Below are positions 1-18,450 of a DNA stretch of 40,530 nucleotides, piece by piece. The DNA is from a virus. Each line of letters begins with the position of its first letter. Position 1 is the first letter of the stretch. Location: positions 1 through 40,530 of the IMG/VR virus record IMGVR_UViG_3300031261_000307. One strand, written 5' to 3'. Under the pieces are notes generated by a model. The model did no database searches. It worked only from the letters and a program-made list of their open reading frames with translations, and was not told where the DNA came from. A program made the position numbers and the translations under genes.

Positions 1-832
1 CAACAGTGTCGGTTACAACCAATTCCTTAAATAATCCCTGCGCCTCGTTCCATAGTCTGTTGAAACCGGAATAGTTGAATACTCCATGCGTTACGGCTGC
101 GCTCACGGATTTAGCGCCTTTATCAATTGCGGCTTTAGCAGCGACCATAAGTGTTCCCAAACTCTCTGTCATGTCATCAAGCATAAGAACATCGCGGCCT
201 TTAATGTCTCCCACGATAAAGGAAGTCTCTACCTCGTCTTCACTCTTACGCTTCTTAGAAGCAAACCCCATAGGAAGATGAAGAACATCCGCGAAAGCCG
301 ATGCACGTTTCAAACCTCCTACGTCAGGACTAAGAACAAAGAGATTAGGTCTGTCTTTGTAATACTCCAAGAGTACAGGTGAAGAGAAGAGATTATCTAC
401 AGGTATATCAAAAAAACCTGCAATTTGAGGAGCGTGGAGGTCCATTGTAATAACTTGGTTCGCTCCCGCTGTTTGTAATAAATTTGCTACGAGTTTTGCA
501 GTAATAGCAATTCTTGGCTTATCTTTTCTGTCGGCCCTTGCATATCCGAAAAATGGCATAACCGCTGTTATCCTTCCTGCGGACGCCCGTTTAGCCGCAT
601 CAATCATAATAAGAAGCTCCATTAAATTATCATTAACGGGGGCATTCGTAGATTGTATTATGTAAGTATCTGCGCCACGAATATTTTCTTCAATTTGAAC
701 CCAAATTTCCCCATCTGCAAAAGGTTTTCTAGCTACTGCTGTCAAATCCATATGAAGGTAATCAGCAATAGATTTCGCCAATACAGGGTTGGAGCTTCCG
801 CTGATAATTTTCAAATTTGATTTCTCGTTCAT
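1..832 (-). CDS. prs: Ribose-phosphate pyrophosphokinase (PRPP synthase), 3' end beyond window
   Basis: Makes PRPP from ribose 5-phosphate and ATP, the co-substrate of the nicotinate phosphoribosyltransferase at 6854-8068. I translated 277 residues from the ATG at 832; the frame is open at the window edge and class I enzymes are about 315 residues. Visible are GYARADRKDKPR (about 96-107), the MDLHAPQIAGFFDIPVDNL segment (130-148, with H133), a basic flexible loop (KKRK, 193-196) and the PRPP loop DDMTESLGT (219-227). The usual loop is DDMIDTGGT, so TESL is a deviation. A paralogue that acts on ADP-ribose, like Adps of the NARP1 pathway, cannot be excluded from sequence alone, but the partner enzymes point to true PRPP synthase. 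Confidence 0.92.
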   Translation of the reverse strand, partial: MNEKSNLKIISGSSNPVLAKSIADYLHMDLTAVARKPFADGEIWVQIEENIRGADTYIIQSTNAPVNDNLMELLIMIDAAKRASAGRITAVMPFFGYARADRKDKPRIAITAKLVANLLQTAGANQVITMDLHAPQIAGFFDIPVDNLFSSPVLLEYYKDRPNLFVLSPDVGGLKRASAFADVLHLPMGFASKKRKSEDEVETSFIVGDIKGRDVLMLDDMTESLGTLMVAAKAAIDKGAKSVSAAVTHGVFNYSGFNRLWNEAQGLFKELVVTDTV

Positions 833-841
833 TGATATGCC

Positions 842-847
842 GTGTAA
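842..847 (+). promoter_or_regulatory. GTGTAA start-proximal motif (HNH gene)
   Basis: GTGTAA followed by AATTTGGT and ATG at 856. The 8-base spacing is the same as at 16696, 34129 and 39965. It may be a -10-like element giving a leaderless mRNA; function is inferred. Confidence 0.45.
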
Positions 848-855
848 AATTTGGT

Positions 856-1533
856 ATGAAGAAATGTAATAAATGTCTCCTGTTTAAGAGTCTGGATGAT
901 TTTTCTAACGATGCAAGCAAAAAAGATGGCAAACGCACAATTTGTGCAAGTTGCACGAGTGCATCCCACGCTATTTATGCCGCTGCTCATCAAAAAGATA
1001 TAAAACGAAAACAAAAGGAATGGTATCAACTGCACCGCCCTGATATTCTCAGAAAAAGCTCGAAGCATTATCGGGGAAATCGAGAAGCTATCCTTGAGAA
1101 TGTAAAAGAATACCGAATTGAAAACAGGACCACTATCCTCAAAAAGAAAAAGTCCTACTACCGCAAACACAAAAAAGCAATTAATCAAAAAATTAAAAAG
1201 CTCCATAATTTACAAAAGGTTCGTGACCCTAGCTATCGAGCGCTTTGGAATCTTAGAAACAGACTCTACTACGCAATAACTAGAAATGGTAATTTTAAGA
1301 GCGCTCATACGTTAGCACTATTAGGGTGTTCCCGTCTGGATTTGAAGAAACATATTGAATCATTATTCCAATCTGGTATGTCATGGGAGAACTACGGTCA
1401 GTGGCACATAGACCATATTAAACCTTGCAAATCATTTGATTTATCATGTAAAGAAGAACAGGAAAAATGCTTTCATTTTTCGAACCTTCAACCTCTTTGG
1501 GCATCAGAAAATTTATCTAAAGGTTGCCGTTAA
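856..1533 (+). CDS. HNH homing endonuclease
   Basis: Free-standing HNH endonuclease of 225 residues. An N-terminal Cys-pair element (CNKC and CASC) is followed by a very basic helical region. The C-terminal HNH core is WHIDHIKP with FSNLQPLWASEN. It is on the plus strand between minus-strand genes, squeezed between prs and the next gene, which it overlaps by 4 bases at its 3' end. I chose the ATG at 856 rather than an upstream in-frame ATG at 817 because 817 lies inside prs, and because GTGTAA lies exactly 8 bases before 856. The same arrangement precedes the LAGLIDADG gene at 16710. Confidence 0.88.
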   Translation: MKKCNKCLLFKSLDDFSNDASKKDGKRTICASCTSASHAIYAAAHQKDIKRKQKEWYQLHRPDILRKSSKHYRGNREAILENVKEYRIENRTTILKKKKSYYRKHKKAINQKIKKLHNLQKVRDPSYRALWNLRNRLYYAITRNGNFKSAHTLALLGCSRLDLKKHIESLFQSGMSWENYGQWHIDHIKPCKSFDLSCKEEQEKCFHFSNLQPLWASENLSKGCR

Positions 1534-2069
1534 CACGCTGCTCCTAGTGAAGGGTGTCCGACCTGAAAGAAGTTAAAAGGATTCCACGAAGACACGGGCG
1601 GTGCAGGAGGCATGTTGTCAGTCTTTGCTGGCGCGAACGGGTCTTGCCATTCACCAATCTTCTTCAATTCTTTCTCAATCAAGTACCAATCCTTGTTACA
1701 TTCGAAACCCGCCTTATCCTCAAGAAGGATGTCGAAATAGAACTTCTTGGAGAAATCACACAAATGCCCGTTCTCACATTCGGGGTTGGCGTTGACAAAA
1801 TTTGGACCAACTCCATGCTGGTCTAACCAAGCTGAAATATCATTGATAGCGTCTCCATGAGAACAGCTATAGAGAATCCACGCCATGTCATCCCGCATGT
1901 CCAGCCACGTAAGAACACGAAGGGCATTCGGACAAAACTCGCGGCCTTCGTTTAGACGATTATGTTTACCAACGATAATGACATCGTGCAAGTCAATCGA
2001 CCAGAACAACTTAGGCCACTTGTTTTGCTTTTTTAGCTCGAAAGCTCTACGGATGTTAAATACATTCAT
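1530..2069 (-). CDS. HAD-superfamily-like phosphatase
   Basis: 179 residues. SIDLHDVIIVG near the N terminus looks like HAD motif I (D-x-H/D). YSCSHGDAINDISAWL resembles the motif II serine region followed by a helix. KKFYFDILLEDKAGFE resembles motif III/IV with Lys and Asp. Substrate unknown. It overlaps the upstream gene (start at 2069 against stop at 2066) and so is probably in the 3963-to-prs transcript. The assignment rests on motif order only and is moderate. Confidence 0.5.
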   Translation of the reverse strand: MNVFNIRRAFELKKQNKWPKLFWSIDLHDVIIVGKHNRLNEGREFCPNALRVLTWLDMRDDMAWILYSCSHGDAINDISAWLDQHGVGPNFVNANPECENGHLCDFSKKFYFDILLEDKAGFECNKDWYLIEKELKKIGEWQDPFAPAKTDNMPPAPPVSSWNPFNFFQVGHPSLGAAC

Positions 2070-2920
2070 GTCCCAATAATACCAACATTTTTAGGTGTGT
2101 CAAGAGACAAATACGAAGTTGCATGGACTTTAGCGCTCTTGAAGTCATCAAGGGCAATCTCTGAAACCCTCTCTACGATTCTCTCCTTGTCGCAAGCATA
2201 TAGGTCTGCCGAACTAAAGCCGTTCAATTCCATTAACCGATAATTGCCTATTTCGTCCTCTGCAATGTCAACACAGAAAACTGAATCTGGATAATACCCT
2301 ACTTCTAATATCTTATGGCACAGTTCCAACGCCCCCGGAGGAACATTCGGGATAAGTGTGAGTAACCCCTGATAACGATATAACGAATGGGCTACTATAT
2401 CTTTATTTTTACTACAAATAAATCTCCATTCTCCGCGAATCTTCTTTGGACTGGCAACGACCACTAAAGAGTGCTGCGGTTTAGATTCATACCATCCTTC
2501 GAAATCTTGTAAATCCACCAAGCAGCTTTCAAAAACCTTGTCTCCTTCGTTAGTGCGTACAAATAACTTCGCCTCGACACCCAACAATCCATAAAAGAAG
2601 TATTTTCTACGGTTCAGTTCACTTAAAGGCAAAATTATATAGTCTTGATTAAACAAAAAACTTCCAAAATAAGAATAGTATTTTGTACAAGCGTAATTAT
2701 CCAACGAACAATATAAGACGCCTTTGGTCGGCCAATGATTCCGAACAATTTTACACCCTTCAATAGAGCCTACAAATATAAAAGGAGATTCTTTGGCGGC
2801 TCTATTCGCATCAAAAGCTTTGTCGAATCCAACAAAAAGTTTAGCTTCGTGGTTTCGTTTGGCGCATTCATATAGCTCTTGATAAGAACTATGACCTAGA
2901 TTTTCGATTAACCACTCCAT
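2066..2920 (-). CDS. ATP-grasp domain protein (DUF4343-like)
   Basis: 284 residues. The C-terminal third holds the ATP-grasp signature region: FCVDIAEDEIGNYRLMELNG then FSSADLY, with acidic metal ligands followed by Glu-x-Asn. The preceding segment has ESKPQHSLVVVASPKKIRGE, resembling nucleotide-contact strands. Such proteins ligate a carboxylate to an amine or thiol using ATP; the substrate here is unknown. Start and stop touch the neighbouring genes, so it is translationally coupled. Confidence 0.65.
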   Translation of the reverse strand: MEWLIENLGHSSYQELYECAKRNHEAKLFVGFDKAFDANRAAKESPFIFVGSIEGCKIVRNHWPTKGVLYCSLDNYACTKYYSYFGSFLFNQDYIILPLSELNRRKYFFYGLLGVEAKLFVRTNEGDKVFESCLVDLQDFEGWYESKPQHSLVVVASPKKIRGEWRFICSKNKDIVAHSLYRYQGLLTLIPNVPPGALELCHKILEVGYYPDSVFCVDIAEDEIGNYRLMELNGFSSADLYACDKERIVERVSEIALDDFKSAKVHATSYLSLDTPKNVGIIGT

Positions 2921-3459
2921 TAATAAACGTCCCCATTTTCCTCAATTTTTAAGTCTTCATAAGGACTAGCATACACGCCATAAAACTTTATTCCGGCAGT
3001 ACGCATTGCCGCTATTGAACGATGAACGTTAATTACTCGTTCCTCATTAGAATCTCTGACAATAACTATTGCAATCTTAGTTAAGACATAATTCAAATCG
3101 ACCGCACAAATATTTTCTCCGGTCTTTACCACCGATAGCAATGGCTCAATCAGAGAGTCAATAATGTCACGTACCTTTTCAGGAAGTACGCGAATAGTCG
3201 TTTCGCAATAGACATCCTCCGCTCCATCTTCTGTTATGAAACGACGATATAACTCCATTGAAGCGCAATTAAAACATCCGATGATGTCGTTTATTCCCTG
3301 ATGGCACTTACTCGTGCCGCGATAATACCAAGCTTGAGCAAGACGATAAGAGATATAACTAAAGTCGGAAGCTTTGTCGGATGAGCCCTCAAGATACTCT
3401 AGCACTTGCTTCAATGGCTTATCAAATAGTGGGCGGCGGATGGATTTTATATAAGGCAT
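2920..3459 (-). CDS. Unknown phage protein with two DUF6899-like halves
   Basis: 179 residues. The start MPYIKSIRRP and the end YEDLKIEENGDVY are hallmarks I associate with the small phage family DUF6899. Elements usually found once seem to occur twice: an ISYRLAQ-like helix with INDIIGCFNCASMELYRRF in the first half, and LNYVLTKIAIV with NVHRSIAAMRTAGIKFYGVY in the second. This suggests an internal duplication. Function unknown; overlaps its upstream neighbour by 13 bases. Confidence 0.6.
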   Translation of the reverse strand: MPYIKSIRRPLFDKPLKQVLEYLEGSSDKASDFSYISYRLAQAWYYRGTSKCHQGINDIIGCFNCASMELYRRFITEDGAEDVYCETTIRVLPEKVRDIIDSLIEPLLSVVKTGENICAVDLNYVLTKIAIVIVRDSNEERVINVHRSIAAMRTAGIKFYGVYASPYEDLKIEENGDVY

Positions 3460-3749: not shown

Positions 3750-3750
3750 A

Positions 3751-3963: not shown

Positions 3964-3973
3964 TTATTTAAGA

Positions 3974-4892: not shown

Positions 4893-6614
4893 TTACAAAA
4901 TATTTTGGTAGTCAACCTCGAATTTTTGAGTGATGGGGAGGTTTCTTCCAAAGCCGAAAGAACGTCTATGGATACGTAATACAGGCGCAGCCTGACGCCT
5001 TTTGAATTCCGCCCTATCGGTGAGAGTTAATATCTTTTTAATGTCACCAATAGTAAGGGCTTCGCACTGTTTCGTATATTCTACTATCTCTCTATCGCTT
5101 AAAAGGTCACGCTCAAGATATAGGTGAAGGACCGCATCTAGCAATGGATAAGGGGGCAAGCTATCGGTATCTTTCTGTGCTTCCCACAATTCAGCCGAAG
5201 GCTCTTTATCTATAATGGTAGTAGGAATAATTTCATTGTGTTTATACTGATTATACCATTTACTTACAGCAAAAACCTCCATTTTATAAACATCGGCAAT
5301 AACCGCAATCCCGCCCGCCATATCGCCATAAATCGTTGCGTACCCTACTGACATTTCCGATTTATTTCCGGTAGAAAGCACCAAAGCGCCAAAGTTATTG
5401 CTATATTCCATAAGAATTCGCCCCCTGATTCGAGCCTGTTCATTCTCAATCGTAAGACGGTTGGGTTCAGTACCAAAAGCTTTCTTAAAATTCTCTATAC
5501 TTAGATTTACTTCTTCTGCTATTGGACGATTATATAACTTCACACCCAAGTTCTTACATAATGTAACAGAGTCGCTGACGCTACCGAGACTAGATACCTT
5601 TGATGGCATCGTAATAGCTATAACGTTATCAGAGCCAAGGGCTTCGCAAGCAATAGCTAAAGTTAACGCGCTATCAATCCCACCACTACTACCCACTACA
5701 ACTGTTTTGAATCCGTTCTTTCGAACGTAGTCTTCGACCCCAAGCTTCAAGTGCGCAAAAATCTGTTTATAATCAGACGCTAAATGCAATGGCGGAAACA
5801 TATTCCGTTGGGGTTCTTCGGTATCAAAGAAACCGCAATCTTCATCAAACCCTTTCATAGGAAAAGCTGAAACCCTGTCTGTACCCATCGGTGGCGACTG
5901 CACGAAAAAACTATAACCATCAAAGATTAAACAATCGTTTGCACCTACCTGATTTACGTACAATATGGATTTATTGTAATGCTTTGCGAGCTTCTCATAC
6001 ATACGATAGCGTTCTTCGTTTTTACCGATATGAGAAGGAGAAGCGTTAATGGTTATAATTAGTTCTACATCGCTATCCCCAACATCCTTCATCGGGTTGG
6101 TGTGATAGAGGGGATTCTTGACAATGGTAGAATCATCCCACGCATCCTCGCAAATAAGTACACCAAATTTAACCTCTTGGTTATCTATAAATGCTCGTAC
6201 AATTTGGTTCTGGTCTGAACGGCCAGCTTCAAAATAACGACCTTCATCAAAGATGTTATAAGTAGGTAGGAGTTGTTTATTGTAACGATAGATTTCTTTC
6301 CCGTTCTGAAAAGCGATGGCGGTATTATATAGGGGTTTTCCAATACCTGTTTTATTTTTTGTTACTGCGCCAAGGAGTATTATGTTATCACTCCCCTCAG
6401 TCAGTTCACAAACGCGTTCCAAATAACGCAACTGTTTATCCACGAATCCCTTACGTAAAAGTAAATCACCTGTAGGATAACCACTAATAGCCATTTCCGA
6501 AAACACCAATACATCAGCCTTAGAACTGTTTTTAGAAATAGCGGCGGCTATTTTATTAAAATTCCCCTGTAAATCGCCTATCGTAAAATTAAGCTGGAAA
6601 GCGCAAATTTTCAT
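4893..6614 (-). CDS. nadE: Glutamine-dependent NAD+ synthetase
   Basis: Last step of NAD+ synthesis: ATP-dependent amidation of nicotinate adenine dinucleotide using glutamine. 573 residues, normal for the two-domain enzyme. An N-terminal nitrilase-type glutaminase (about 1-270) has the triad E40 (FSEMAISGYP), K113 (YNKQLLPTY) and C155 (LICEDAWDD). A C-terminal synthetase domain has the PP-loop SGGIDS (310-315), STGNKSEMSVGYAT, and a C terminus rich in Arg (RIHRRSFGFGRNLP). All key residues are intact. It follows pncB and an 80-residue gene in the same transcript and overlaps the latter by 4 bases. An HNH pseudogene lies immediately downstream. Confidence 0.96.
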   Translation of the reverse strand: MKICAFQLNFTIGDLQGNFNKIAAAISKNSSKADVLVFSEMAISGYPTGDLLLRKGFVDKQLRYLERVCELTEGSDNIILLGAVTKNKTGIGKPLYNTAIAFQNGKEIYRYNKQLLPTYNIFDEGRYFEAGRSDQNQIVRAFIDNQEVKFGVLICEDAWDDSTIVKNPLYHTNPMKDVGDSDVELIITINASPSHIGKNEERYRMYEKLAKHYNKSILYVNQVGANDCLIFDGYSFFVQSPPMGTDRVSAFPMKGFDEDCGFFDTEEPQRNMFPPLHLASDYKQIFAHLKLGVEDYVRKNGFKTVVVGSSGGIDSALTLAIACEALGSDNVIAITMPSKVSSLGSVSDSVTLCKNLGVKLYNRPIAEEVNLSIENFKKAFGTEPNRLTIENEQARIRGRILMEYSNNFGALVLSTGNKSEMSVGYATIYGDMAGGIAVIADVYKMEVFAVSKWYNQYKHNEIIPTTIIDKEPSAELWEAQKDTDSLPPYPLLDAVLHLYLERDLLSDREIVEYTKQCEALTIGDIKKILTLTDRAEFKRRQAAPVLRIHRRSFGFGRNLPITQKFEVDYQNIL

Positions 6615-6853: not shown

Positions 6854-8068
6854 TTAGTATCTCTCGATAGCCATACGAACGTAGTCAAGGTATTGTTGAT
6901 TATTGCAGCTTGCCTTCGCAGGGTTAGCACTTAATTTACATACGTCTTGAGAATTAGCCATAGTAATTTTCATAACCACTTGCGGCACAGGAATATCCAT
7001 ATGGTTTGTTAGGTCTGTACCTATCCCGAACGCTAACCCTATACGTCCCCTGAATCTACGATGGAGTTTAATCATTGTATCGAAATTAAGCCCATCAGAA
7101 AACAACAGCCGCTTCGTCAGAGGGTCGATGTCATAGTTTTCATACATACAAACAATTTTCTCCCCAAAAATAAAGGGGTCGCCGCTATCGTGACGACAAG
7201 AATCAAACCCTTTAGCAAGTTCAAAGGAAAAATCCTTAAAAAAACGTGCGTCACCTAAAGTGTCGGTTAAAGCGGTCCCCCATTGTCCACGGTACTCGCT
7301 CAACCATATTTTAAAAGCTTGACGCTGGCTATGTTGGACCGGATAAAGACCTTGAAGACCCATCGGTAGCTCATGCCCAAAGGAACCTATCTCTTTGATG
7401 TTAAATTCTTTAGAAAACGCTACATTACTTGTACCTATGAGGTTATGGGGGCAGTCGGTAATTAGAGTTTTAATGACGTTCTTCTGCCATAGTTGAGAAT
7501 ATCTTCTCCGCGTCCCAAACTCCAAAAGTTTCGGCACATCAAAACCATCCGCGATGCTTTCTACATTGTATTCTGTGAGCGTACAAATTTTTTCGCTTAG
7601 ATGTTTTATACCGTCGTTTATCGGGGAGCATTTGTTATTTTTCGTATAGTTCCTAGCAAAAATCTCATTGACAATGCTTAATACCAGCGTTTCATAAAGG
7701 ATAATGCCCGCCCATGGTCCATTAGCGATAATCCGATACGTCCGGTTTTCCTCATCACGTTTTACTGTCAACTGTTCCTCTGGCAGAAATCGGAAATTAT
7801 AGAGGTATTGCGCAAACGTTTTACTGTAGTAGCCCTTGCTAAGGACATACCGATATTCTTCATCCGTAAGTTTGAGAGTCGCCAAATGTTTGAAAAGCTG
7901 CTCCCTCAATTCGTCTTCGGGAACGTATCTCAGCAAATCTAGCTTCTCCTTATTCCTACAAGTGAACTCGTAACGCGCTTCGATATTCGAAAAGAGGTTA
8001 AAAATGATTTGCAAAACCGTCAATTTGTAGAGGTCTAAATCGAGCAAACTTTTGATGATTGGTTCCAT
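6854..8068 (-). CDS. pncB: Nicotinate phosphoribosyltransferase
   Basis: Converts nicotinate plus PRPP (with ATP) to nicotinate mononucleotide. 404 residues, close to the enterobacterial enzyme (about 400), and alignable by eye over its full length: LLDLDLYKLTVLQ at 8-20, FGTRRRYS at 184-191, IGTSNVAFSKEF at 211-222, the phosphorylated-histidine region GSFGHELPM (H232), LTDTLGD, RHDSGDP (292-298), LFSDGLN and FGIGTDLTN. It is not the NAMPT/NadV type, so the pathway here is the deamidated one. It starts 7 bases after a strong promoter-like element and heads a transcript with nadE. Confidence 0.95.
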   Translation of the reverse strand: MEPIIKSLLDLDLYKLTVLQIIFNLFSNIEARYEFTCRNKEKLDLLRYVPEDELREQLFKHLATLKLTDEEYRYVLSKGYYSKTFAQYLYNFRFLPEEQLTVKRDEENRTYRIIANGPWAGIILYETLVLSIVNEIFARNYTKNNKCSPINDGIKHLSEKICTLTEYNVESIADGFDVPKLLEFGTRRRYSQLWQKNVIKTLITDCPHNLIGTSNVAFSKEFNIKEIGSFGHELPMGLQGLYPVQHSQRQAFKIWLSEYRGQWGTALTDTLGDARFFKDFSFELAKGFDSCRHDSGDPFIFGEKIVCMYENYDIDPLTKRLLFSDGLNFDTMIKLHRRFRGRIGLAFGIGTDLTNHMDIPVPQVVMKITMANSQDVCKLSANPAKASCNNQQYLDYVRMAIERY

Positions 8069-8075
8069 GACGTTT

Positions 8076-9669: not shown

Positions 9670-10278
9670 TTACTTTTGTTGAAAATAGCTGCTCTGTTTG
9701 CCACGAATACCTCGATAAGACATATTTGCGTCACTGTACGCACTCCATACGTCGTTATCGTAAAATTCGCTAATAGCTTTTACAAAGAACGGTATGTCTC
9801 TTTCTGCTGAAAGCGGACGAAAATGATTCACGTCAACGCCGACATTGATGGAGTTCAATTGGAACTTCCATGCTCCATGAATATGTCCTACTAAATTAAA
9901 ATAATCCCTACGAGCCAAGCTTGGATAATGAACCAAATAGAAAGGATTAATAGACACACCGGGGCACGGATTCAAACCTTCACCATCGGGTACGATTGTT
10001 TCAAAGTAAGGCGCTAAGTCGTTATCTGAAAATACCCTATCGTGATTACCACGAATAAGAATCTTGCGTCCGTTAAACTCCTTCACGAACGGCAACCAAT
10101 GCGGAGCCTTTTGATAACAAACATCGCCTACAACATAAACTAGGTCATCAGGCGATACTAAAGCGTTATGGTTTGTTTTGAGTACGTCGCCCATTTCCTC
10201 GGGCGTCCCAAAAGGGCGTTGCATAATCTCGAAGCGGTCTTCCCCCAAATGCCAGTCAGCAGTAATCCATGTTTGCAT
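9670..10278 (-). CDS. Calcineurin-like metallophosphoesterase
   Basis: 202 residues with all metallophosphoesterase motifs in order: TADWHLGEDR (D-x-H), VVGDVC (G-D), RGNHDRVF (G-N-H-D), LVHYP, and GHIHG. Two-metal phosphodiester or phosphomonoester hydrolase. The substrate is unknown; similar phage proteins are often annotated as phosphatases acting on nucleotides. It appears monocistronic with its own promoter. Confidence 0.9.
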   Translation of the reverse strand: MQTWITADWHLGEDRFEIMQRPFGTPEEMGDVLKTNHNALVSPDDLVYVVGDVCYQKAPHWLPFVKEFNGRKILIRGNHDRVFSDNDLAPYFETIVPDGEGLNPCPGVSINPFYLVHYPSLARRDYFNLVGHIHGAWKFQLNSINVGVDVNHFRPLSAERDIPFFVKAISEFYDNDVWSAYSDANMSYRGIRGKQSSYFQQK

Positions 10279-10318: not shown

Positions 10319-12013
10319 TTATTTCATACTCAGGTTGTAAACAGAGTCGCCGTTGACAACATAAATTTTGTTTCCCCACGAGTAAAGGGACTGGTTGCTG
10401 GTAAGAGGGGACTCTAAAATCGTCTTTACTGCCGAGTTGTCGTAGAAAAGTTCAATCGAATCGCCATTAGCGGCGACACAAAGCCCTTTGTCCAGCACTG
10501 TAAAATTAACATCCTGCACAACAACATTTGATTCTACCCGAATCGCGTACGTCGAAACAGATTTATCAAAAATGAGAGTCTGCCGCTCATAAACGCCCTT
10601 ATCTTCTGCGATTACGATAGCAACCCCATTCATGTATTTCGCGTCAACAATACGCTTTCCATCCAATTCAGGAACGTGGATAGTTTTAGAGGCTCCGACC
10701 TTATAAGGAATCGCTATGCGGCATGTGCCGAGCATATCTTGAACGACCATTCCATCGAATATCTTATGGGTATCAATGATGTTTGCGACGATTTGTTTTG
10801 AGACTACAACTTTAGCACCGAGATTAGAAAACGTCATTTCAACCAAGCTACCATGAATAACAACATAAAGTCTTCGGTTAGCTATAAAGTATCCATTTGT
10901 ACTTATTACAGCGGATTCGGTGCCTTTAAAGTTAATATACGATAGCTTACCAGTCAAACTATTAAAGGACAAAGAGTATGGCAAATCCCCTTGAACGGGA
11001 ATAAAATCGTGTTGAATACGCTTCTCTGTATAACCTGTCGCTGGCGTTAATGAGGCTATTTTCTTAGAACCAATATGGATTCCTGTTGCGCAATAAGCGC
11101 AGATAGAACCATCTATATCACGAATCGCGCCAATAATCCCGCCATATTGGCGGAATAAGGTTAATTCAAATTTTGCATTCGACGCAATAATTTTTGTTTG
11201 TACTGGTCCAGTAGTAATAACAACTTGGTCGGGGTCAGGTGGAGCAATACGTTCGCCATACTCAAATACCTTCTCGAACCATTTTAAATGTCCCTTTGGG
11301 ATTACGGACCAGTCCTGACAGTTAGGAGGCAGCGAGGACTTCTTATTAAACACGCTTACGCCCGCATCCATCATTGCTTGCCAATCACGACCGAAATCAG
11401 GATGGCGACCTTTATAAGGGTGTGTACCCATGTATAGCTCGAACATTACAATCGCCCAACTATACCAGTCGCTTGATTCTGTAAACTTATTACCAGATAC
11501 TTTAGGGTCGCGAATCGAATCCATTATAGCTGTAGCTTTGTAAGATGGCGTTTGCCAAGAATCCGTATCAATATGATAATATTCATCAAAGGTTGCGTTG
11601 GTCAAAAAATTGAAGGGGTTATAATCTACCACTAAAAACTTCTGAGAGTGAATAGTTTTCAATGTATCTTGCGCCCGTTTAACTAGGTCGGCAATATTTT
11701 GCGAAGATATACCGTTCTTATCTCTAAACCCTTTCGTAAAAAGTCTACAAAGGTATTCTGTTTTCGAAACGAAGGGCATAGAGAACCCTATTGGTTGCCC
11801 TTTTATGTCATAAATTACATCTGAGGGCGTAAGAACATTAGGTAATTTTAGTTGGCTTAATTCCTGAATTTTACCCACAGGAATCATTTTAGATGGGTCG
11901 TGGTAAATTTTATAGGCGGTCAAATGCTTCTTAAAAACCTGAGCTTCACCGCCCTGAGCGAGGTAGTCGTTCTGGTGTAATTCGATTTTTTGATTATTTA
12001 TCAGTATTTTCAC
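10319..12013 (-). CDS. Protein kinase-like protein (YegI/TerY-P type) with C-terminal repeat domain
   Basis: 564 residues, GTG start. Kinase domain in about the first 270: glycine loop AQGGEAQVF (19-27), likely Lys K35 (YKIYHD), catalytic-loop equivalent VVDYNPFNFL (128-137), and DFG equivalent HIDTDSWQ (147-154), as in YegI-like kinases. DWYSWAIVMFELYMGTHPYKG follows as the helix F region. The remaining 290 residues are strand-rich with recurring ANGD/NGD turns, like a beta-propeller, so this may be a ligand sensor. It is the last gene of the operon that begins with the VWA protein and also carries a PP2C phosphatase. Likely a Ser/Thr kinase; the canonical HRD is degenerate. Confidence 0.8.
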   Translation of the reverse strand: MKILINNQKIELHQNDYLAQGGEAQVFKKHLTAYKIYHDPSKMIPVGKIQELSQLKLPNVLTPSDVIYDIKGQPIGFSMPFVSKTEYLCRLFTKGFRDKNGISSQNIADLVKRAQDTLKTIHSQKFLVVDYNPFNFLTNATFDEYYHIDTDSWQTPSYKATAIMDSIRDPKVSGNKFTESSDWYSWAIVMFELYMGTHPYKGRHPDFGRDWQAMMDAGVSVFNKKSSLPPNCQDWSVIPKGHLKWFEKVFEYGERIAPPDPDQVVITTGPVQTKIIASNAKFELTLFRQYGGIIGAIRDIDGSICAYCATGIHIGSKKIASLTPATGYTEKRIQHDFIPVQGDLPYSLSFNSLTGKLSYINFKGTESAVISTNGYFIANRRLYVVIHGSLVEMTFSNLGAKVVVSKQIVANIIDTHKIFDGMVVQDMLGTCRIAIPYKVGASKTIHVPELDGKRIVDAKYMNGVAIVIAEDKGVYERQTLIFDKSVSTYAIRVESNVVVQDVNFTVLDKGLCVAANGDSIELFYDNSAVKTILESPLTSNQSLYSWGNKIYVVNGDSVYNLSMK

Positions 12014-12284: not shown

Positions 12285-12675
12285 TATATTTTATAAATTC
12301 CTTTTCTAATATAGCTCGTTTAATAGCTGTTTCTAATCCTCCACAACTAAACATAGGAGGACTTACTTTTCCACTAACTATATCTCGGGCTTGAGGCATA
12401 AAACTTTCAATCCAGTCTTCCGAGCATAAATTATAAGACTCTAAATCAGAAGAAGTAACAACAATATCGGGATTGATTTCCCATTTACGACCGCCGCATA
12501 CGAAAGGGTTGTTTCTATTTATAAAAGCTTGATATACCTCCGAATCATCGACCTTCGACTTAACTAGGTCGCACATTATACGGTCCCGTCCCAAAGTATA
12601 ATAGACGACACAATGTTTGCAGTGAATACAAAGTCGTTTCTCTACCTCGGATTTGGATACGTAGGAATTAGGCAT
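12277..12675 (-). CDS. Hypothetical Cys-rich protein
   Basis: 132 residues. CIHCKHC near residue 16 with further Cys at about 35 and 59 could bind zinc. Not recognised. Its start touches the stop of the PP2C gene, so it is coupled to the kinase/phosphatase/VWA operon. Confidence 0.6.
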   Translation of the reverse strand: MPNSYVSKSEVEKRLCIHCKHCVVYYTLGRDRIMCDLVKSKVDDSEVYQAFINRNNPFVCGGRKWEINPDIVVTSSDLESYNLCSEDWIESFMPQARDIVSGKVSPPMFSCGGLETAIKRAILEKEFIKYND

Positions 12676-13496
12676 TATACAAAAGAGATTGCCGCTGCTG
12701 AAATGTCGTCAAAGTGGGTATTGCCTTTAGCTTTGGTATCTTTGCGGAACCGCATCATACGGCGCTGTACAAAGTCTCCAGTCAAAGATTTAAAACTTGT
12801 AAATTCTTTCTCAACGCTCAAAGGAGCATCCGTGGTTCCAACAGTAAAACTATCTAATCCATCACTAGACACAAGAACAAAATCTATATCAGGGTTCGAA
12901 TATTCCTGATAGAAGCTCTCCTTCGCATCAAAAGATTCGCCGCCAGCTATTCCCCCAGCGTCGTTTTCACCAGCAAGGATTTCAGTATAGCTTCTAACGA
13001 TACCAAGATTTGTTCCGAATTCTTTTATGTATTCATCAACGCGTCCGTCTCCTATACGATACGCTAAATAGAACGGTGCGCCACTTGGATAGTTGACGCT
13101 GTAGTGGTTAGTCGCGTAACCGCGCTTAACAAAAATATGTCCATCGCCCCACATATGAAGCCTTAGTATATCTTCTTTTTTTGAATATACAGCAGCAACC
13201 AACGTTGCGTTCAAACTCCTAAGCGACAAGCCTAGCTCACGCCCAACGGTTTTTATTTTACTGATTGTGAATTCTTCAATAAAATCGTTCGTAGGCTTAC
13301 CCCCAACAGATACTATTGAATCGGTCGCTTTAACAAAAGCTTCCGCTACGATACGAGCGCCTACATCGCTCTTGGGAGAATCTGAACATCCGTCCGATAC
13401 TACAGCATACACGATATTGTCCGTCTCGCCACTTATACTGTAATCTTGGCAGATTTCGTGCTTGTGACCCTGTTCGAAGTAACAGTCGGTATTCAT
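12675..13496 (-). CDS. PP2C-type protein phosphatase
   Basis: 273 residues. PP2C motifs are visible in order: the N-terminal QDYS, AVVSDGCSD with the metal-binding Asp, GARIVAEAF helix, SLNATLVAAVYS, LHMWGDGHIFV, VLVSSDGLDSF, and the C-terminal HFDDISAAAISF (D-D-x-S). This is the metal-dependent Ser/Thr phosphatase fold. It would reverse phosphorylation by the kinase at 10319-12013 in the same operon, matching YegK in the YegI/YegK/YegL arrangement. Confidence 0.85.
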   Translation of the reverse strand: MNTDCYFEQGHKHEICQDYSISGETDNIVYAVVSDGCSDSPKSDVGARIVAEAFVKATDSIVSVGGKPTNDFIEEFTISKIKTVGRELGLSLRSLNATLVAAVYSKKEDILRLHMWGDGHIFVKRGYATNHYSVNYPSGAPFYLAYRIGDGRVDEYIKEFGTNLGIVRSYTEILAGENDAGGIAGGESFDAKESFYQEYSNPDIDFVLVSSDGLDSFTVGTTDAPLSVEKEFTSFKSLTGDFVQRRMMRFRKDTKAKGNTHFDDISAAAISFV

Positions 13497-14396: not shown

Positions 14397-14400
14397 AATA

Positions 14401-15138
14401 TTAAAAAGAAAGATTCTTACTCAAACCACCCGTTCCAAGCGCTTGACTACTGGAAGAGACACTTCGGCTAATGAAACCGCCCATCTTCGCCAGACTATTA
14501 GGAGTCGCATCACCAATCCATACGAACTGGTCAAGAGCAGCTTCATTCTTGAAATTGTCAAGGTATGTCTGCACGCGAGCGTTATCTCCAACCCCGATAA
14601 GAATTGTCTTTAAGGACTCAAGCTTTTCGGATACCTTTACAGCGGTAATAGCGCTTTTGATTTTAGCGGGCGTACCAGTACGGGAACCTTGGTTGTCTCC
14701 GTCTGTAATCCAAATTGCCAACGCGTTAACACGGTATTCCATGTTATCTAATTGGGTCGCGTATTGACCAATGGACTCGATACTCTCCAATCCCATATCA
14801 TAAAGAACAGTACAACCGCCAGTATGAATCTTGTAATTAGCAATGTCAACGTCAGCCAATGGAATATAACCATGGATTTCAACGATGTCGCTCGCGAAGG
14901 TGCTAACACGAAGCAGGATGCGGTCAACATTAGGACTCTTTTGGAGAGCTTCGACAGCAGTTTTAACCGCTTTTTCAAGGTCATCTTCGAATCCTTGAAC
15001 AGAAGAAGATGCGTCGATTTTGATGTCAACGATTGTATATTCGCTGCCGGTTAGGTCTTCGGGGCGCTTTGCAGAGAATCCGAAGTTAGAGATAGTTTGC
15101 TGAACGATTGTGTCCGGTTGATTTAGAAGTTTAGGCAT
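14401..15138 (-). CDS. VWA-domain protein (TerY/YegL type)
   Basis: 245 residues. The metal-ion-dependent adhesion site is complete: DASSS (D42-x-S44-x-S46), a Thr in GGCTVLYD, and WITDGDNQG. Bacterial VWA proteins of this type act with a PP2C phosphatase and a protein kinase in the TerY-P and YegI/K/L systems, and both partners follow in the same transcript. First gene of an operon of eight (15138 to 10319). It starts 6 bases after its -10 element. Confidence 0.88.
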   Translation of the reverse strand: MPKLLNQPDTIVQQTISNFGFSAKRPEDLTGSEYTIVDIKIDASSSVQGFEDDLEKAVKTAVEALQKSPNVDRILLRVSTFASDIVEIHGYIPLADVDIANYKIHTGGCTVLYDMGLESIESIGQYATQLDNMEYRVNALAIWITDGDNQGSRTGTPAKIKSAITAVKVSEKLESLKTILIGVGDNARVQTYLDNFKNEAALDQFVWIGDATPNSLAKMGGFISRSVSSSSQALGTGGLSKNLSF

Positions 15139-15144
15139 AGTATT

Positions 15145-15172
15145 AGTTTATTAGTTTTTTATATTCCGTCAA
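15145..15172 (-). promoter_or_regulatory. Promoter of the VWA-PP2C-kinase operon
   Basis: TTGACG at 15172-15167, N16, TAAACT at 15150-15145, only 6 bases before the ATG at 15138. Predicts a leaderless mRNA. Confidence 0.6.
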
Positions 15173-15175
15173 GAG

Positions 15176-15382: not shown

Positions 15383-15388
15383 ATGTTT

Positions 15389-15568
15389 TTAGTTTATTGG
15401 TTGGAAGTTTTCGTTAGTTAGTATTTCGGGTTTCGGGTTTCGGAAACACCATGGCAGACGTTCCTTTGTCCTGATAACTACGTAAGGAGTTATGATAAAA
15501 TGTGGGGCACGCATTGACTTACGGCGATATGGAACACCAAATTTATTGTATCCGTATTCGTAATTCAT
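15389..15568 (-). CDS. Hypothetical basic protein
   Basis: 59 residues from the ATG at 15568 (MNYEYGYNKFGVPYRRKS). The ATG directly follows the TAA of the 21-codon ORF, in the same TTAATATG junction that links pncA to the gene at 15632-15826. A longer in-frame start would run into the duplicated segment. Function unknown. Confidence 0.5.
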   Translation of the reverse strand: MNYEYGYNKFGVPYRRKSMRAPHFIITPYVVIRTKERLPWCFRNPKPEILTNENFQPIN

Positions 15569-15610
15569 ATTAAAAGTCCGTGGTTTTTGCAATACGCATT
15601 CCCTTTGGCA
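15568..15610. repeat. Direct repeat, copy A of the pncA 3' end
   Basis: About 40 bases matching 15826-15868 with only a few differences; includes the pncA stop and the start codon of the next gene. Confidence 0.75.
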
Positions 15611-15635
15611 TCGAAAAGATTTCGTATAGTGTCAT
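15570..15635 (-). CDS. 21-residue ORF carrying a copy of the PncA C terminus
   Basis: Reads MTLYEIFSMPKGMRIAKTTDF. The last 11 residues equal the C terminus of the nicotinamidase (KGMRIAKTTDF), and the DNA at 15568-15610 closely matches 15826-15868. Its ATG overlaps the TGA of the preceding gene (ATGA). Either a leftover of a partial tandem duplication or a translated micropeptide; I favour the leftover. Confidence 0.4.
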   Translation of the reverse strand: MTLYEIFSMPKGMRIAKTTDF

Positions 15636-15826
15636 TTTAATTTTAGGTGAATTGATTGAATCATATGAGACGCAAAGGAATCGGGTTCAACCGAAAATTC
15701 TGTAGGGTTCATTCCAAACGGTATAGAATATTTTTCAAGTTCGTCTGCTAGAACTTTCAATTGACAATATTCTGCTTGGCTATCGCCTTCAATTATTAAT
15801 CCTTTATCACCGGGCCAGAATCTCAT
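15632..15826 (-). CDS. Hypothetical small protein
   Basis: 64 residues from the ATG at 15826 (MRFWPGDKGLIIEGDSQ). Contains EYCQLKVLADELEKYSIPFG helix. I placed the start directly after the pncA stop; the longer frame lies inside pncA. Not recognised. Translationally coupled to pncA. Confidence 0.55.
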   Translation of the reverse strand: MRFWPGDKGLIIEGDSQAEYCQLKVLADELEKYSIPFGMNPTEFSVEPDSFASHMIQSIHLKLK

Positions 15827-15868
15827 ATTAAAAATCCGTGGTTTTTGCAATGCGCATGCCCTTGGCGA
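15826..15868. repeat. Direct repeat, copy B (native 3' end of pncA)
   Basis: Matches 15568-15610. Encodes the last residues of PncA and the TTAATATG junction. Confidence 0.75.
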
Positions 15869-16640
15869 CAAGCTCTTTAACGAACGAGTCGGCCATATCA
15901 GCAAACATAGTGCTCCCCGGAAGGTCGCCTACGGGACTCGAAGCGTCCTCAAGAAGAACGAACTTCTTAACGTGCTCGTCACCAAACTCTGCGGCGATGT
16001 CGCGAACAGAATTAGCAACGCAGTGACTCAACGCCTCACCAGCAATCCAAATTTCATCAGCGGTTTGAAGACGATTAATAAAGCTCGTGTTCAAATCGGT
16101 GCTGGGGTCTTCGGGGTCGATGACATCAGCCTTGACGACCGAATAGTGCTCTGTAAAAGGATTACTGCCTTTAGTAACATAATCCACCATCGCGAACTGG
16201 TCCTGCCACTCACGAAGCGCGGGCTGGAGAATTGGGTGGATACGATGACCGTCCGTACCAATAAGGCAATGCGGGGGCCAAATAACGAGAACATAACGCT
16301 GCCCTGCCGCGAGAGCGTTAACGTATGCGACTTGGCGAGTCTGCCAAGCGGGATTGAATGCACGCCACTTAGGAGCGGTGCCCGTAACGTCCGCTACGGT
16401 AATCATGGTGAAAGGGTCAGGGTGCTTACCTGCTGCGTCCACCCAACAAATAGGGTGCGCGATGTGGACAGGTTGGTGAGAATCGAGAGTGACGCGAATA
16501 TCGTCAATACGGTCCTTGTTACGGCTGATTAGCTTCGCAAGACGTTCGAGGTCTTTCTCGGCTCCTCCTACGTAGAGAGCACCTTTAGGGTCGCAGAAGT
16601 CGAACTGCGGGTCAATAATGAGCAACTGAATATTTTTCAT
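15828..16640 (-). CDS. pncA: Nicotinamidase (isochorismatase superfamily)
   Basis: Hydrolyses nicotinamide to nicotinate and ammonia, feeding PncB. 270 residues. The triad is visible: D10 (IIDPQFDF), K157 (YVTKGSNPF) and C207 (EALSHCVANSV). Metal ligands are in DSHQPVHIAHP (D53, H55 and one or two later His). WPPHCLIGTDG at 121-131 is a nicotinamidase hallmark. It is somewhat longer than the enterobacterial enzyme (about 210), with an extra segment at about 66-120. It is the first gene of its transcript, and a LAGLIDADG gene lies divergently upstream. Confidence 0.9.
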   Translation of the reverse strand: MKNIQLLIIDPQFDFCDPKGALYVGGAEKDLERLAKLISRNKDRIDDIRVTLDSHQPVHIAHPICWVDAAGKHPDPFTMITVADVTGTAPKWRAFNPAWQTRQVAYVNALAAGQRYVLVIWPPHCLIGTDGHRIHPILQPALREWQDQFAMVDYVTKGSNPFTEHYSVVKADVIDPEDPSTDLNTSFINRLQTADEIWIAGEALSHCVANSVRDIAAEFGDEHVKKFVLLEDASSPVGDLPGSTMFADMADSFVKELVAKGMRIAKTTDF

Positions 16641-16649
16641 ATACGCTTA

Positions 16650-16677
16650 TTTTTAGTGGTTTTTTGAACTTTGTCCA
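16650..16677 (-). promoter_or_regulatory. Promoter-like element of pncA
   Basis: TGGACA at 16677-16672, N16, TAAAAA at 16655-16650, 9 bases before the ATG. It overlaps upstream sequence of the divergent LAGLIDADG gene. Confidence 0.45.
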
Positions 16678-16695
16678 GACAAAAATCGTTTTGCG

Positions 16696-16701
16696 GTGTA
16701 A
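16696..16701 (+). promoter_or_regulatory. GTGTAA start-proximal motif (LAGLIDADG gene)
   Basis: GTGTAA, then AATTGTTT, then ATG at 16710. Nearly identical to the leader of the HNH gene at 842-858. Confidence 0.45.
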
Positions 16702-16709
16702 AATTGTTT

Positions 16710-17528
16710 ATGCAACGCAAATACTATCAATGGACGGACGACGAACTAAGTTTACTAACGCGGCTGTATCCGACAGCCGATAAACGGTTTCTAATTGCAA
16801 ACCTACGAAATCGCAAATGGTCCGCAATACAGAAAAAGGCACAAAAGCTTGAACTCGCTCGTGAGATTGAGAAGTATAATGATATGTCTGAACTTTTGAA
16901 AGAAACTGTAGAGGCATATTATTGGTTGGGATTTTTGATGGCAGACGGAAGTTTTACGAAGAACAGGATTTCTTTAGCTATATCAGGCGATGATTTAGAC
17001 CATCTTAAACGCTTTAGAGAATTTGTCAAGTCCACAAATACGCTTTCCAAAGTCGGCAACAATTACTACCGCCTCAAATGTACTGACGGCTCAATCGTTA
17101 GAGCGCTTCGAGAAAAATTTAATATACATAATAATAAAACGCACAACCCCTGTACGCTTTCAGGAATATCAAATCCAGATTTAATGTTTGCTCTATTCAT
17201 TGGGTTCTTCGACGGGGATGGAAGTCTTTATAAGAATAAAAAATGGAATAGTTTTTCTTTATATATAGTAGGCCATCCTGCGTGGCTCGAAAACTTTCAA
17301 AGCTTCGGAGAGTTTCTACAACAATACCTATCAAAATCTCTTAAATGTCGTCACTGCTGGATAGCTAATAAAACCACATCTGTTCCTCAGAACCCCGAAA
17401 AGAAAACTTATAGGCTAGCCCATTTTTCGATTACAAATCGCCAGTTCATCGAGGCAATCAAGCGGCGTGCTGACGAATTGGGACTTCCTTATCTCCAGAG
17501 AAAATTAGGGGTTCTACAAGAGCGCTAA
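16710..17528 (+). CDS. LAGLIDADG homing endonuclease
   Basis: 272 residues from the ATG at 16710, which reads MQRKYYQWTDDELSLLTRLY, a helix-turn-helix-like N terminus. Two LAGLIDADG helices are visible: YYWLGFLMADGSF and LFIGFFDGDGSL, each ending in the catalytic acidic residue, so it may act as a monomer. It is inserted in the opposite orientation between pncA and nadM. Confidence 0.9.
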   Translation: MQRKYYQWTDDELSLLTRLYPTADKRFLIANLRNRKWSAIQKKAQKLELAREIEKYNDMSELLKETVEAYYWLGFLMADGSFTKNRISLAISGDDLDHLKRFREFVKSTNTLSKVGNNYYRLKCTDGSIVRALREKFNIHNNKTHNPCTLSGISNPDLMFALFIGFFDGDGSLYKNKKWNSFSLYIVGHPAWLENFQSFGEFLQQYLSKSLKCRHCWIANKTTSVPQNPEKKTYRLAHFSITNRQFIEAIKRRADELGLPYLQRKLGVLQER

Positions 17529-17538
17529 AAAAGATTCC

Positions 17539-18450
17539 TTAAAGCATAAATTCTGTCCCGAATCTCCGTAACAACGGTAAATGTTCAGGAGCTATATCTT
17601 CAATAGTTAGTTCATGTGGCTTAAACCATTTAGCTTCCGCTATATCGTCTTGAGCTATCACGGTGCCGCTTTTGTATTTAGCGTGAAAGAATAGAGTCTT
17701 GATTTTATCTGTATCATCCCTATATCTCCAATCATCAATAAGAAAACTTCCTAGATATTTCGGTTCATAAATTTCTATTCCTAGTTCTTCTTTAACCTCA
17801 CGGATTGCATCTTCTTCGAAACAGATAGATTCTGGTTCTGAAAACCCTCCACAGAATCTCCATACCTTTGAATCCGGTTTGCGGACCATCAGCATATCGA
17901 AATTATCGTTCGTAATTGCAGTATCAACAGTCGCCCATGTCTTAGGGTATTGGTCATAAGCACCAGAGATACGTCCAGCACGGAAGTCATCGCTAAAATT
18001 CTTTCGATTCAGAACGCGCTCACGCATTTCGGTGCCTGTTTCAGTAATGCGTGACTCCAAAGCCTCCGCATGAAATGCCCCTTTATAAGACTTTACAAAA
18101 GAATCCCGCGAGCCATATAGGATTGTGTTATTCTGATACGCATCAGGAATAGCTTCTTGAATAGCTTTGTCCAGATTGCGGTTCCAAGTTTCATCGTTGC
18201 CAACGTCCATCAGCGGCACAACCCTCAAATCTGCATGAGGATATTCCTCCTGAATCATTTGTCGCCGCATTTCAAATGTCAATGCATTCTTACGAGCGAG
18301 ACGCTTAGGAGAACATCCAAGCACGACGAGTACCATCTGATGTTTATCGAATACCCTATTGAACAAATCTAAGTGCCCCGCTGTCATGCGATGTACCTGA
18401 AATCTTCCGACTATAACTCCGTATGTATTTAGGTTTGTCATTGAGTGCAT
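17539..18450 (-). CDS. nadM: Bifunctional nicotinamide/nicotinate mononucleotide adenylyltransferase - Nudix hydrolase
   Basis: Joins AMP to NMN or NaMN, giving NAD+ or NaAD; the fused Nudix domain typically hydrolyses ADP-ribose. 303 residues. The adenylyltransferase motif GRFQVHRMTAGH (15-26) corresponds to GRFQPxHxGH. At 201-226 lies a full Nudix box (GGF-x-E ... REVKEELGI). In this phage it links PncB (NaMN) to NadE (NaAD to NAD+). Overlaps the upstream HNH gene by 13 bases, and M4 is an alternative start. Confidence 0.92.
   Translation of the reverse strand: MHSMTNLNTYGVIVGRFQVHRMTAGHLDLFNRVFDKHQMVLVVLGCSPKRLARKNALTFEMRRQMIQEEYPHADLRVVPLMDVGNDETWNRNLDKAIQEAIPDAYQNNTILYGSRDSFVKSYKGAFHAEALESRITETGTEMRERVLNRKNFSDDFRAGRISGAYDQYPKTWATVDTAITNDNFDMLMVRKPDSKVWRFCGGFSEPESICFEEDAIREVKEELGIEIYEPKYLGSFLIDDWRYRDDTDKIKTLFFHAKYKSGTVIAQDDIAEAKWFKPHELTIEDIAPEHLPLLRRFGTEFML

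Follow-up and report, generated by a model that had tools for sequence, protein, structure and literature searches.

The window, by which we mean the whole stretch of 40,530 bases analysed here, is a single linear IMG/VR record and forms part of the genome of an uncultured bacterial virus. Between positions 2 and 18450 it carries five genes of NAD+ salvage, all on the minus strand, encoding Prs, NadE, PncB, PncA and a NadM-Nudix fusion, together with the further genes collected in Table 1. Neither capsid nor terminase was recognised among 40 window proteins scanned against Pfam and 10 scanned against PHROGs. A contig from another metagenome, G001, overlaps positions 7419-40530 at 99.8-99.99% identity and, beyond the overlap, encodes a phage-type RNR, an ATP-dependent DNA ligase, an RNA ligase/tail-fibre attachment protein and an endonuclease; a nucleotide search of "phages" returned zero relatives of the window. 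Amber recoding was considered and rejected: a CUA tRNA is present, yet TAG terminates six of the 57 listed ORFs, and reading through it adds 0 to 43 aa.

Table 1. Features of the NAD+-salvage island and its surroundings, in window coordinates.
Feature	Position	Strand	Basis
Prs, ribose-phosphate pyrophosphokinase, 3' end outside window	2..832	-	NF002320 361.9 bits (cut-off 297); PDB 3dah E 1.5e-78
NadE, glutamine-dependent NAD+ synthetase, glutaminase and synthetase domains	4893..6614	-	NF010588 561.4 bits (cut-off 479); PDB 5kha E 3.6e-105
PncB, nicotinate phosphoribosyltransferase	6854..8068	-	TIGR01514 354.3 bits (cut-off 269.55); PDB 1yir E 3.9e-74
Calcineurin-like phosphoesterase, accessory	9670..10278	-	Pfam PF00149 E 1.7e-7; homologue at 14/80 viral PncA loci
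Ser/Thr kinase-like protein (STK), C-terminal region of unknown fold	10319..12013	-	Pfam Pkinase E 6.7e-7, under cut-off
PP2C-type protein phosphatase	12675..13496	-	Pfam PP2C_2 E 3.6e-14
vWA-domain protein, conserved Ser-rich C-terminal tail	14401..15138	-	AlphaFold2 pLDDT 87.1; Foldseek top matches vWA/integrin I domains
PncA, probable nicotinamidase, long subfamily	15828..16640	-	Fold and active site
LAGLIDADG homing-endonuclease-like ORF, between NadM and PncA	16671..17528	+	Pfam LAGLIDADG_3 E 2e-7
NadM-Nudix, nicotin(amid)ate mononucleotide adenylyltransferase fused to Nudix domain	17539..18450	-	NF003787 E 9.6e-16; NUDIX E 2.7e-15; PDB 2qjt/2qjo
PARP-type ADP-ribosyltransferase, likely NAD+ consumer adjoining island	19921..21261	-	Pfam PARP E 2.9e-29; PARP_reg E 8.9e-7

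The pathway had been expected to need a glutamine donor, and NadE, with CN_hydrolase and NAD_synthase domains (Pfam), brings its own glutaminase domain. An identity of PncB as NAMPT was rejected on family models, the protein exceeding the TIGR01514 cut-off and matching the phage NAMPT family phrog_448 weakly (E 8.3e-6); PncB, a NAPRTase equivalog, is also the one NAPRTase-family match (PF04095) in the window, itself a fragment. The remaining question of this kind concerns NARP1, which consists of Adps, an ADP-ribose-specific homologue of Prs, and the NAMPT-like Namat. Prs, visible over 277 aa before the window edge cuts its 3' end, bears the R5P loop and DLHA motif of PRPP synthetases. Its loop reads DDMTESLGT, against DDICDGG(A/R)T in three phage Prs proteins encoded beside NAMPT-family genes, and it shares 25-27% identity with these three, one of them from a genus with reported NARP1, as against 46-50% with the Prs of two phages that have the five-gene set. 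By sequence, then, the window Prs looks like a PRPP synthetase rather than Adps, an identity disfavoured by the canonical loop and by the low identity to Prs found beside NAMPT-family genes. The earlier proposal that the phage supplies its own PRPP gains accordingly from the same loop and identity split, which make a Prs acting only on ADP-ribose unlikely.

PncA falls under the cut-offs of both models tried, scoring 37.8 bits against the curated nicotinamidase model NF008623 (cut-off 174) and E 0.00095 against Pfam isochorismatase, and it is the predicted fold and active site that point to a nicotinamidase. Searched with Foldseek, its AlphaFold2 model (pLDDT 95.9) retrieved nicotinamidases or pyrazinamidases as the best eleven PDB chains (six proteins), with TM-scores of 0.49-0.64 by query length and identities of 18-21%. 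The catalytic D-K-C and metal D-H-H set of nicotinamidases is present, the residue roles, which in part we take as given, having been assigned through alignment to yeast PNC1. D53, H55, H124, K157 and C207 are invariant in 160 of 160 relatives, near-duplicates included, and D10 is found in 159, the remaining one being gapped; D10 and H124 lie inside the peptide patterns that gathered the relatives, so the unbiased test is that of D53, H55, K157 and C207.

NadM-Nudix scores 57.7 bits against NF003787, where the cut-off is 449, and among solved structures it comes closest to NadM-Nudix enzymes from bacteria (E 5e-6). That both PncA and NadM-Nudix lie far under curated cut-offs counts against the pathway reading developed below. 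The enzyme also bears on which of the last two steps comes first. According to one report (PMC3376133), NadM enzymes accept NMN, unlike NadD, or accept both nucleotides, so that a path from NaMN through NMN to NAD+ may also be open to the phage. The same text pairs the NadM of Francisella with a NadE homologue that is an NMN synthetase, and the bifunctional NadM of Acinetobacter with a conventional type F NAD synthetase. A Francisella-like order, in which NadE would amidate NaMN to NMN and NadM would then adenylate NMN to NAD+, leaves inputs and output unchanged and alters the intermediate; set against the Acinetobacter pairing, and against a phage NadE that has a glutaminase domain and exceeds an NAD+ synthase equivalog cut-off, we regard it as rather unlikely. 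Precedent for this NadM/NadE pairing tips the balance slightly towards NaMN-NaAD-NAD+.

The claim of the sequence-only reading that all five enzymes have intact catalytic residues was thus borne out at this locus by family models, folds and active sites, and the route from nicotinamide to NAD+ that it proposed appears chemically complete, as judged from sequence and fold: the parts of Preiss-Handler or deamidated salvage, namely a predicted nicotinamidase, nicotinate PRTase, mononucleotide adenylyltransferase and NAD+ synthetase, all lie on one record. Gene content, folds, active sites and conserved linkage lead us to favour NAD+ salvage by the phage through a pathway whose first step is regulated; from them we infer what the proteins do, how entry is controlled and what the system achieves in infection, and we think this account probably right, with some reserve. 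Whether host effectors or the phage PARP set it free from NAD+, nicotinamide would be converted by PncA to nicotinate, which PncB would join to PRPP from Prs to give NaMN; NadM and the glutamine-dependent NadE would then add AMP and the amide, yielding NAD+. The Nudix half of NadM may cleave ADP-ribose to AMP and ribose 5-phosphate, the latter usable by Prs, and in this way both halves of broken NAD+ could be recycled. At the entry, kinase and PP2C would determine how far the vWA protein is phosphorylated, and that protein would in turn control PncA; a phospho-switched nicotinamidase would commit nicotinamide to deamidated salvage, and this phage would supply the remaining path. A point against this account comes from the compact L245 cluster, whose Prs shares only 28% identity and is without the canonical motifs.

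Two phage routes for rebuilding NAD+ are known, and both retain the amide. A deamidating route that also encodes the PRPP and glutamine steps would add a third, with no dependence on salvage genes of the host. The island resembles NARP1 in combining Prs-fold and PRTase-fold enzymes and in the predicted rebuilding of NAD+ from nicotinamide, but neither Adps nor Namat was recognised by sequence in the window fragment. With NARP2-type systems (NadV/NAMPT plus NadM, as in KVP40 and phi-Grn1) it has in common phage-encoded NAD+ synthesis from nicotinamide with PRPP, and NadM-Nudix; it differs in that nicotinamide would be deamidated by PncA, PncB would take the place of NAMPT and NadE would restore the amide. 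The NMNAT/NadM component of NARP2 is present, under cut-off yet family-consistent, and NAMPT/NadV was not found in the window fragment (PF04095). The separation from NARP1 and NARP2 proposed earlier therefore holds as far as the fragment extends, Prs being unlike Adps and PncB the sole match of its family. The Iyer 2022 survey (PMC9503650) reports NadV in every one of its phages that bears NadM, a rule that the island route would contradict. LR756500 (462 kb) has NadM together with a single NAPRTase-family match that is PncB, as do three contigs of the L083 lineage, with the proviso that a very divergent NAMPT could escape the profile, the NAMPT of LR745206 having scored only E 4.9e-4.

Several named phages hold portions of such a pathway. 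Agrobacterium phage Atu_ph07, a jumbo isolate, has nicotinate phosphoribosyltransferase and NAD synthetase genes but is without a long PncA (a weak 57-position match only) and without Prs; NadR and PnuC are reported for it (PMC6102473). For Xanthomonas phage X1 (2026), DRAM-v annotation gives pncB, nadM, nadD, nadE and, unlike the island, NAMPT, and the authors suggest that NAD+ depletion is countered; the text available makes no mention of pncA or prs (PMC13384950). Rheinheimera phage Barba19A carries neighbouring prs and pncB pyridine-salvage genes beside a macro domain, with no mention of PncA, NadE or NadM in the portion of the report at hand (PMC6715854); its 496-aa "PncB" and adjacent 268-aa Prs could be a candidate NARP1. 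A term search of PMC7162821 for NAD terms found none.

Among 47 viral contigs of at least 65 kb, the complete five-gene set occurs on four, three of which share one PncA while the fourth has a NadM without Nudix. A PncB-family gene is present on 26 of the 47 and NadE on 22, together on 19 (Fisher p 9e-5), and full-length PncB on 18, accompanied by NadE on 14 (Fisher p 0.001), in tests that take no account of contig size or kinship; among the 23 contigs of at least 150 kb the PncB family reaches 18 and NadE 16. Full-type NadM was counted on four and Prs on five of the 47, NadD and NadR standing outside the count. No PncB-family gene lies on 21 of the 47, all possible fragments, PncB is missing from the 10 kb flanks at 59 of 80 viral PncA loci, and a profile scan detected it at 25 of 78; with so many loci and contigs lacking PncB, PncA may feed a PncB of the host or have a different role. 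Matches to PncB and NadE in Acinetobacter phage MD-2021a (two records each) were dropped, the two records opened holding bacterial housekeeping genes.

Were these genes unlinked, host-derived metabolic cargo brought together by chance, one would point to LR756511, in which PncA, PncB, NadE and Prs are dispersed across about 100 kb. We consider this highly improbable, and the reading was already disfavoured: the same-strand order recurs across independent lineages, NadM preceding PncA at 13 of the 14 viral loci where NadM scores above 60 (some eight lineages, seven so arranged), and one genome contig packs PncB-Prs-NadE-NadM-PncA-vWA-PP2C-STK into less than 10 kb. In cultured bacteria, members of this PncA subfamily have pncB and nadE nearby (Andreprevotia, Chitinimonas, Cupriavidus) or pncB (Silvimonas, Deefgea), and at 18 of the 80 kept genome loci PncB is found within 5 kb. 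These bacterial clusters differ from the phage island in having no vWA, PP2C or kinase homologues within at most 5 kb on each side, weak NadM matches and no Prs. At 44 of the 80 kept genome loci, seven Pseudomonas and Treponema among them, neither vWA nor PncB is nearby, which counts against the favoured account.

What is conserved around viral PncA is of another kind. The five-gene set that headed the sequence-only reading is real; it is also rare, and the conserved context of PncA consists of the vWA, PP2C and kinase genes, which lie within the range then described and went unnamed. At 80 viral PncA loci, vWA is present at 76, PP2C at 74 and STK at 75; after clustering at 70% identity, each of the three is represented in 47 of the 49 clusters. 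Conversely, all 80 vWA loci have PncA. For the vWA protein Pfam gave no match and a profile search of solved structures nothing convincing; the fold search by Foldseek succeeded. Its metal-site residues are intact, D42, S46, T110 and D146 being invariant, along with S224, S226, S228 and S231 of the tail, in 25 rows whose relatives came by way of PncA, and the tail motif is present in 61 of 64 distinct tails of vWA-scan loci, a biased figure because the motif was itself used in the scan. The kinase residues of STK are likewise intact (K35, D130, N135 and D149 invariant in 16 aligned rows), and its profile aligned with PDB kinases over short segments (best E 4e-5).

From this conserved linkage we infer that the vWA protein controls PncA and that kinase and phosphatase set its phosphorylation, the Ser-rich tail being the likely site; the usual arrangement of PncA and vWA is adjacent, and their gap of about 690 nt in the window speaks against the favoured account. 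The PncA-vWA-PP2C-kinase unit departs further from known systems than does the five-enzyme variant of NAD+ reconstitution, and its conservation suggests that many large phages place the removal of nicotinamide under the control of signalling. We tentatively propose, with less than even confidence, an undescribed phospho-controlled nicotinamide-handling system in many large phages and some bacteria: a kinase and phosphatase triggered by infection or ADP-ribose would set phosphorylation of the vWA tail, switching PncA between sparing nicotinamide and committing it to NAD+ rebuilding, and some lineages, this phage included, would have extended the system to a self-sufficient five-enzyme route.

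The unit might instead be a signalling or anti-defence system whose purpose is the removal of nicotinamide or a related amide, with NAD+ synthesis secondary. Nicotinamide inhibits many NAD+-using enzymes, and the unit is conserved at viral loci of which many have no visible PncB, NadE, NadM or Prs. It also resembles the TerY-P triad of Ter islands, which comprises a vWA protein, a PP2C and a Ser/Thr kinase; the likeness lies in the same three kinds of protein being clustered, and the phage unit differs in having a nicotinamidase as partner. The frequent presence of PncB-family and NadE genes on the long contigs, clustered with the unit in several lineages, and the pncB and nadE neighbours of the PncA subfamily in cultured bacteria pull the other way, and we see a signalling or anti-defence purpose of this kind as possible while leaning against it.

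For the salvage system that we favour, a role against host NADases, as predicted earlier for defences such as Thoeris, DSR, Sir2-APAZ or CBASS, is plausible as a conjecture. The phage PARP would be a rival NAD+ consumer to these defences, and the pathway could feed the phage's own use of NAD+, mainly by PARP, rather than repair damage done by the host. The PARP gene lies 1.5 kb upstream of NadM, and the window also encodes a DarG-like macro domain and a cREC domain, DarG being the exception among otherwise weak PADLOC matches. PARP homologues occur at four of the 80 viral PncA loci and in LR756500; four is few, and two of them are contigs of one phage. We judge provision for the phage's own consumption unlikely as the main purpose, the more so as the DNA ligase on G001 is ATP-dependent and ligation by the phage need not consume NAD+.

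All five genes that the sequence-only reading had assigned to a nicotinamide-to-NAD+ route lie on the same (minus) strand of the window, one linear IMG/VR record of 40,530 bases, and no nucleotide relatives of its bases 1-20000 were found in the phage collection. Genes for a calcineurin-like phosphoesterase, a kinase, a PP2C phosphatase and a vWA protein lie among or beside the NAD+ genes, and a PARP gene lies upstream of NadM at a distance of 1.5 kb. ORFs resembling homing endonucleases of the HNH and LAGLIDADG types (3982-4872, 16671-17528 and 18438-19250) sit inside or border the island; an R2K-type ATP-grasp ligase (2066-2920), with a homologue in another PncA-scan locus (L079), has Prs on one side and NadE on the other.

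NAD+ genes of the window and their standing against curated NCBIfam cut-offs
Gene	Coordinates	Strand	Curated cut-off	Remark
Prs	2-832	minus	above	gene cut by window edge
NadE	4893-6614	minus	above	glutaminase domain present
PncB	6854-8068	minus	above	
PncA	15828-16640	minus	below	
NadM-Nudix	17539-18450	minus	below	

PncA is remote by sequence from yeast PNC1 (phmmer, E 2.6e-6). A profile of 39 rows nonetheless reached seven PDB sequences (best E 7.6e-15), namely six named nicotinamidases and L. infantum PNC1. The best eleven Foldseek chains for the predicted structure (pLDDT 95.9) are nicotinamidases/pyrazinamidases, with isochorismatase-family proteins, biuret hydrolase and other amidases ranking lower. 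The sequence-only reading had called the catalytic residues intact; the active-site residues D53, H55, K157 and C207 are conserved in 160/160 relatives; H124 is likewise present in 160/160 and D10 in all but one gap, both positions falling within the search patterns. In cultured bacteria the long PncA subfamily, to which the window's protein belongs, lies near pncB, and also near nadE in Andreprevotia, Chitinimonas and Cupriavidus. We predict, with good but not complete confidence, that PncA is a nicotinamidase.

In viral loci PncA has its most constant neighbors in the genes for vWA, PP2C and the kinase. Viral contigs scanned with five PncAs of phage origin gave 126 relatives, of which 80 were kept (63 clusters at 90% identity, 49 at 70%); vWA accompanies PncA in 76/80, PP2C in 74/80 and the kinase in 75/80, always on the strand of PncA, and each occurs in 47/49 of the 70% clusters. 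From the end of PncA to the start of the vWA frame (stop to stop) the median distance is 22 nt, and 59 loci have 400 nt or less. In a separate scan by vWA (105 relatives, 80 kept, many contigs common to the PncA scan), PncA lies within 6 kb in 80/80. Three deposited huge phages carry long PncA: vWA adjoins it in LR745208 and LR756500, and was not found in the roughly 1.5 kb examined of LR756511. In MT835470 and LR756501 PncB and NadE lie near a short PncA, and the short stretches examined there showed no vWA. Six PncA-vWA units (L324, L331, L337, L357, L373, L375) have IMG/VR record numbers that are isolate-like by format, so cultured hosts may exist for them.

The unit extends beyond viral records. 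A genome scan gave at least 446 PncA relatives, and among the 80 loci kept 23 have vWA, 18 PncB, 5 both and 44 neither. Two records deposited as Acinetobacter phage MD-2021a (L018, L019) carry bacterial housekeeping genes and are likely bacterial contigs. In a quick tree viral and genome PncAs intermingle; that of the window (identical to L002) pairs with L076 (support 99), near L079 and a NadM-bearing clade (L083, L113, L082, L103, L098, L099; supports 87-90, open forks). On a contig binned as Zambryskibacteria (L245), which may be bacterial chromosome or an element, PncB-Prs-NadE-NadM-PncA precedes genes homologous to those for vWA, PP2C and kinase in the window; the Prs of L245 is without canonical motifs. 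This run is compact (1-9285), and the next gene resembles UppP by eye.

The complete route is much rarer than the unit; any of the records may be a fragment. Within 10 kb on each side, contig permitting, phmmer found PncB at 21 of the 80 viral PncA loci, NadE at 15, NadM at 15 (weak Nudix-type matches included), Prs at 6 and PARP at 4. Whole-contig searches of the 47 among these 80 whose contigs reach at least 65 kb matched the PncB profile in 25 (18 full, 2 partial, 5 weak), Pfam adding one PncB-family contig (G038); NadE was matched in 22, NadM in 20 (4 full, and one the adenylyltransferase half alone) and Prs in 5. Only four of the 47 hold all five genes: G008, G034 and G045, whose PncAs are identical after trimming, and G017, whose NadM is without the Nudix part. 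With the window, three lineages carry the complete set. Among contigs of at least 150 kb, 18/23 have a PncB-family gene and 16/23 NadE. Two deposited huge phages come close, LR756500 having all but a Prs match and LR756511 all but a NadM match. No long viral contig searched had a second NAPRTase-family match. The weak PncB-family matches, frames of 450-531 aa, may represent a divergent phosphoribosyltransferase, and possibly another such route; together with NadE-like genes they adjoin PncA in L095, L107 and L116. In these loci and L318, the divergent PncB-like and NadE-like genes lie ahead of PncA. As PncB is not seen in many phages with the unit, and this NadM or Prs is found in few, either the host would supply these steps or PncA would have another role there.

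We lean, as the sequence-only reading did, toward the order NaMN-NaAD-NAD+ because the phage NadE has a glutaminase domain. Both orders are compatible with the genes: NadM enzymes can accept either NMN or both mononucleotides; in Francisella NadM goes with a NadE that makes NMN, and in Acinetobacter the partner of a bifunctional NadM is a NadE of type F (PMC3376133). Whether Prs acts on ribose 5-phosphate or ADP-ribose had been left as a question. The window's Prs shares 46-50% identity with those of two five-gene phages and 25-27% with three adjoining NAMPT-family genes (PaP1, Felix O1, KNP2); the latter have DPHS and DDICDGG(A/R)T, in contrast to its DLHA and DDMTESLGT. Identity and motifs thus speak for ribose 5-phosphate as the substrate. 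Adps/Namat is reported for PaP1's genus (PMC12846349). By its family, the Nudix domain could convert ADP-ribose to ribose 5-phosphate for Prs, closing the loop.

Kinase residues K35, D130, N135 and D149 are conserved (16 rows), as are the metal-site residues of vWA and its tail serines S224, S226, S228 and S231 (25 rows); model confidence is low at its C-terminal end (residues 235-245). On the strength of these conserved kinase, metal-site and tail positions, we propose that a phospho-switch on the vWA protein would act through vWA on PncA.

The most expanded jumbo-phage NAD+ set is reported to comprise three genes (Iyer 2021), and every NadM phage is reported also to have NadV (Iyer 2022; PMC9503650); the present cases differ from both statements. 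Phage X1 is annotated with pncB, nadM, nadD and nadE plus NAMPT (PMC13384950). The literature searched, seen in part, mentions PncA neither as a step of any phage NAD+ route nor in linkage with vWA, PP2C and kinase, and we count the route as a novel form of phage NAD+ reconstitution.

Elsewhere in the window, a DarG-type macro domain (30088-30585; NF048014 E 2.1e-30, below its cut-off; PADLOC DarG E 6.2e-33) probably strips ADP-ribose off DNA. Weak matches of sugar-phosphate/ADP-ribose type span 23793-31063 (IGPS-like, cREC, BtpA-like, histidine phosphatase, CoaB-like/aldolase II, macro and DSPc), and these genes may process ADP-ribose products. A CUA-anticodon tRNA lies at 32067-32141; TAG is nonetheless the stop in 6/57 listed ORFs.
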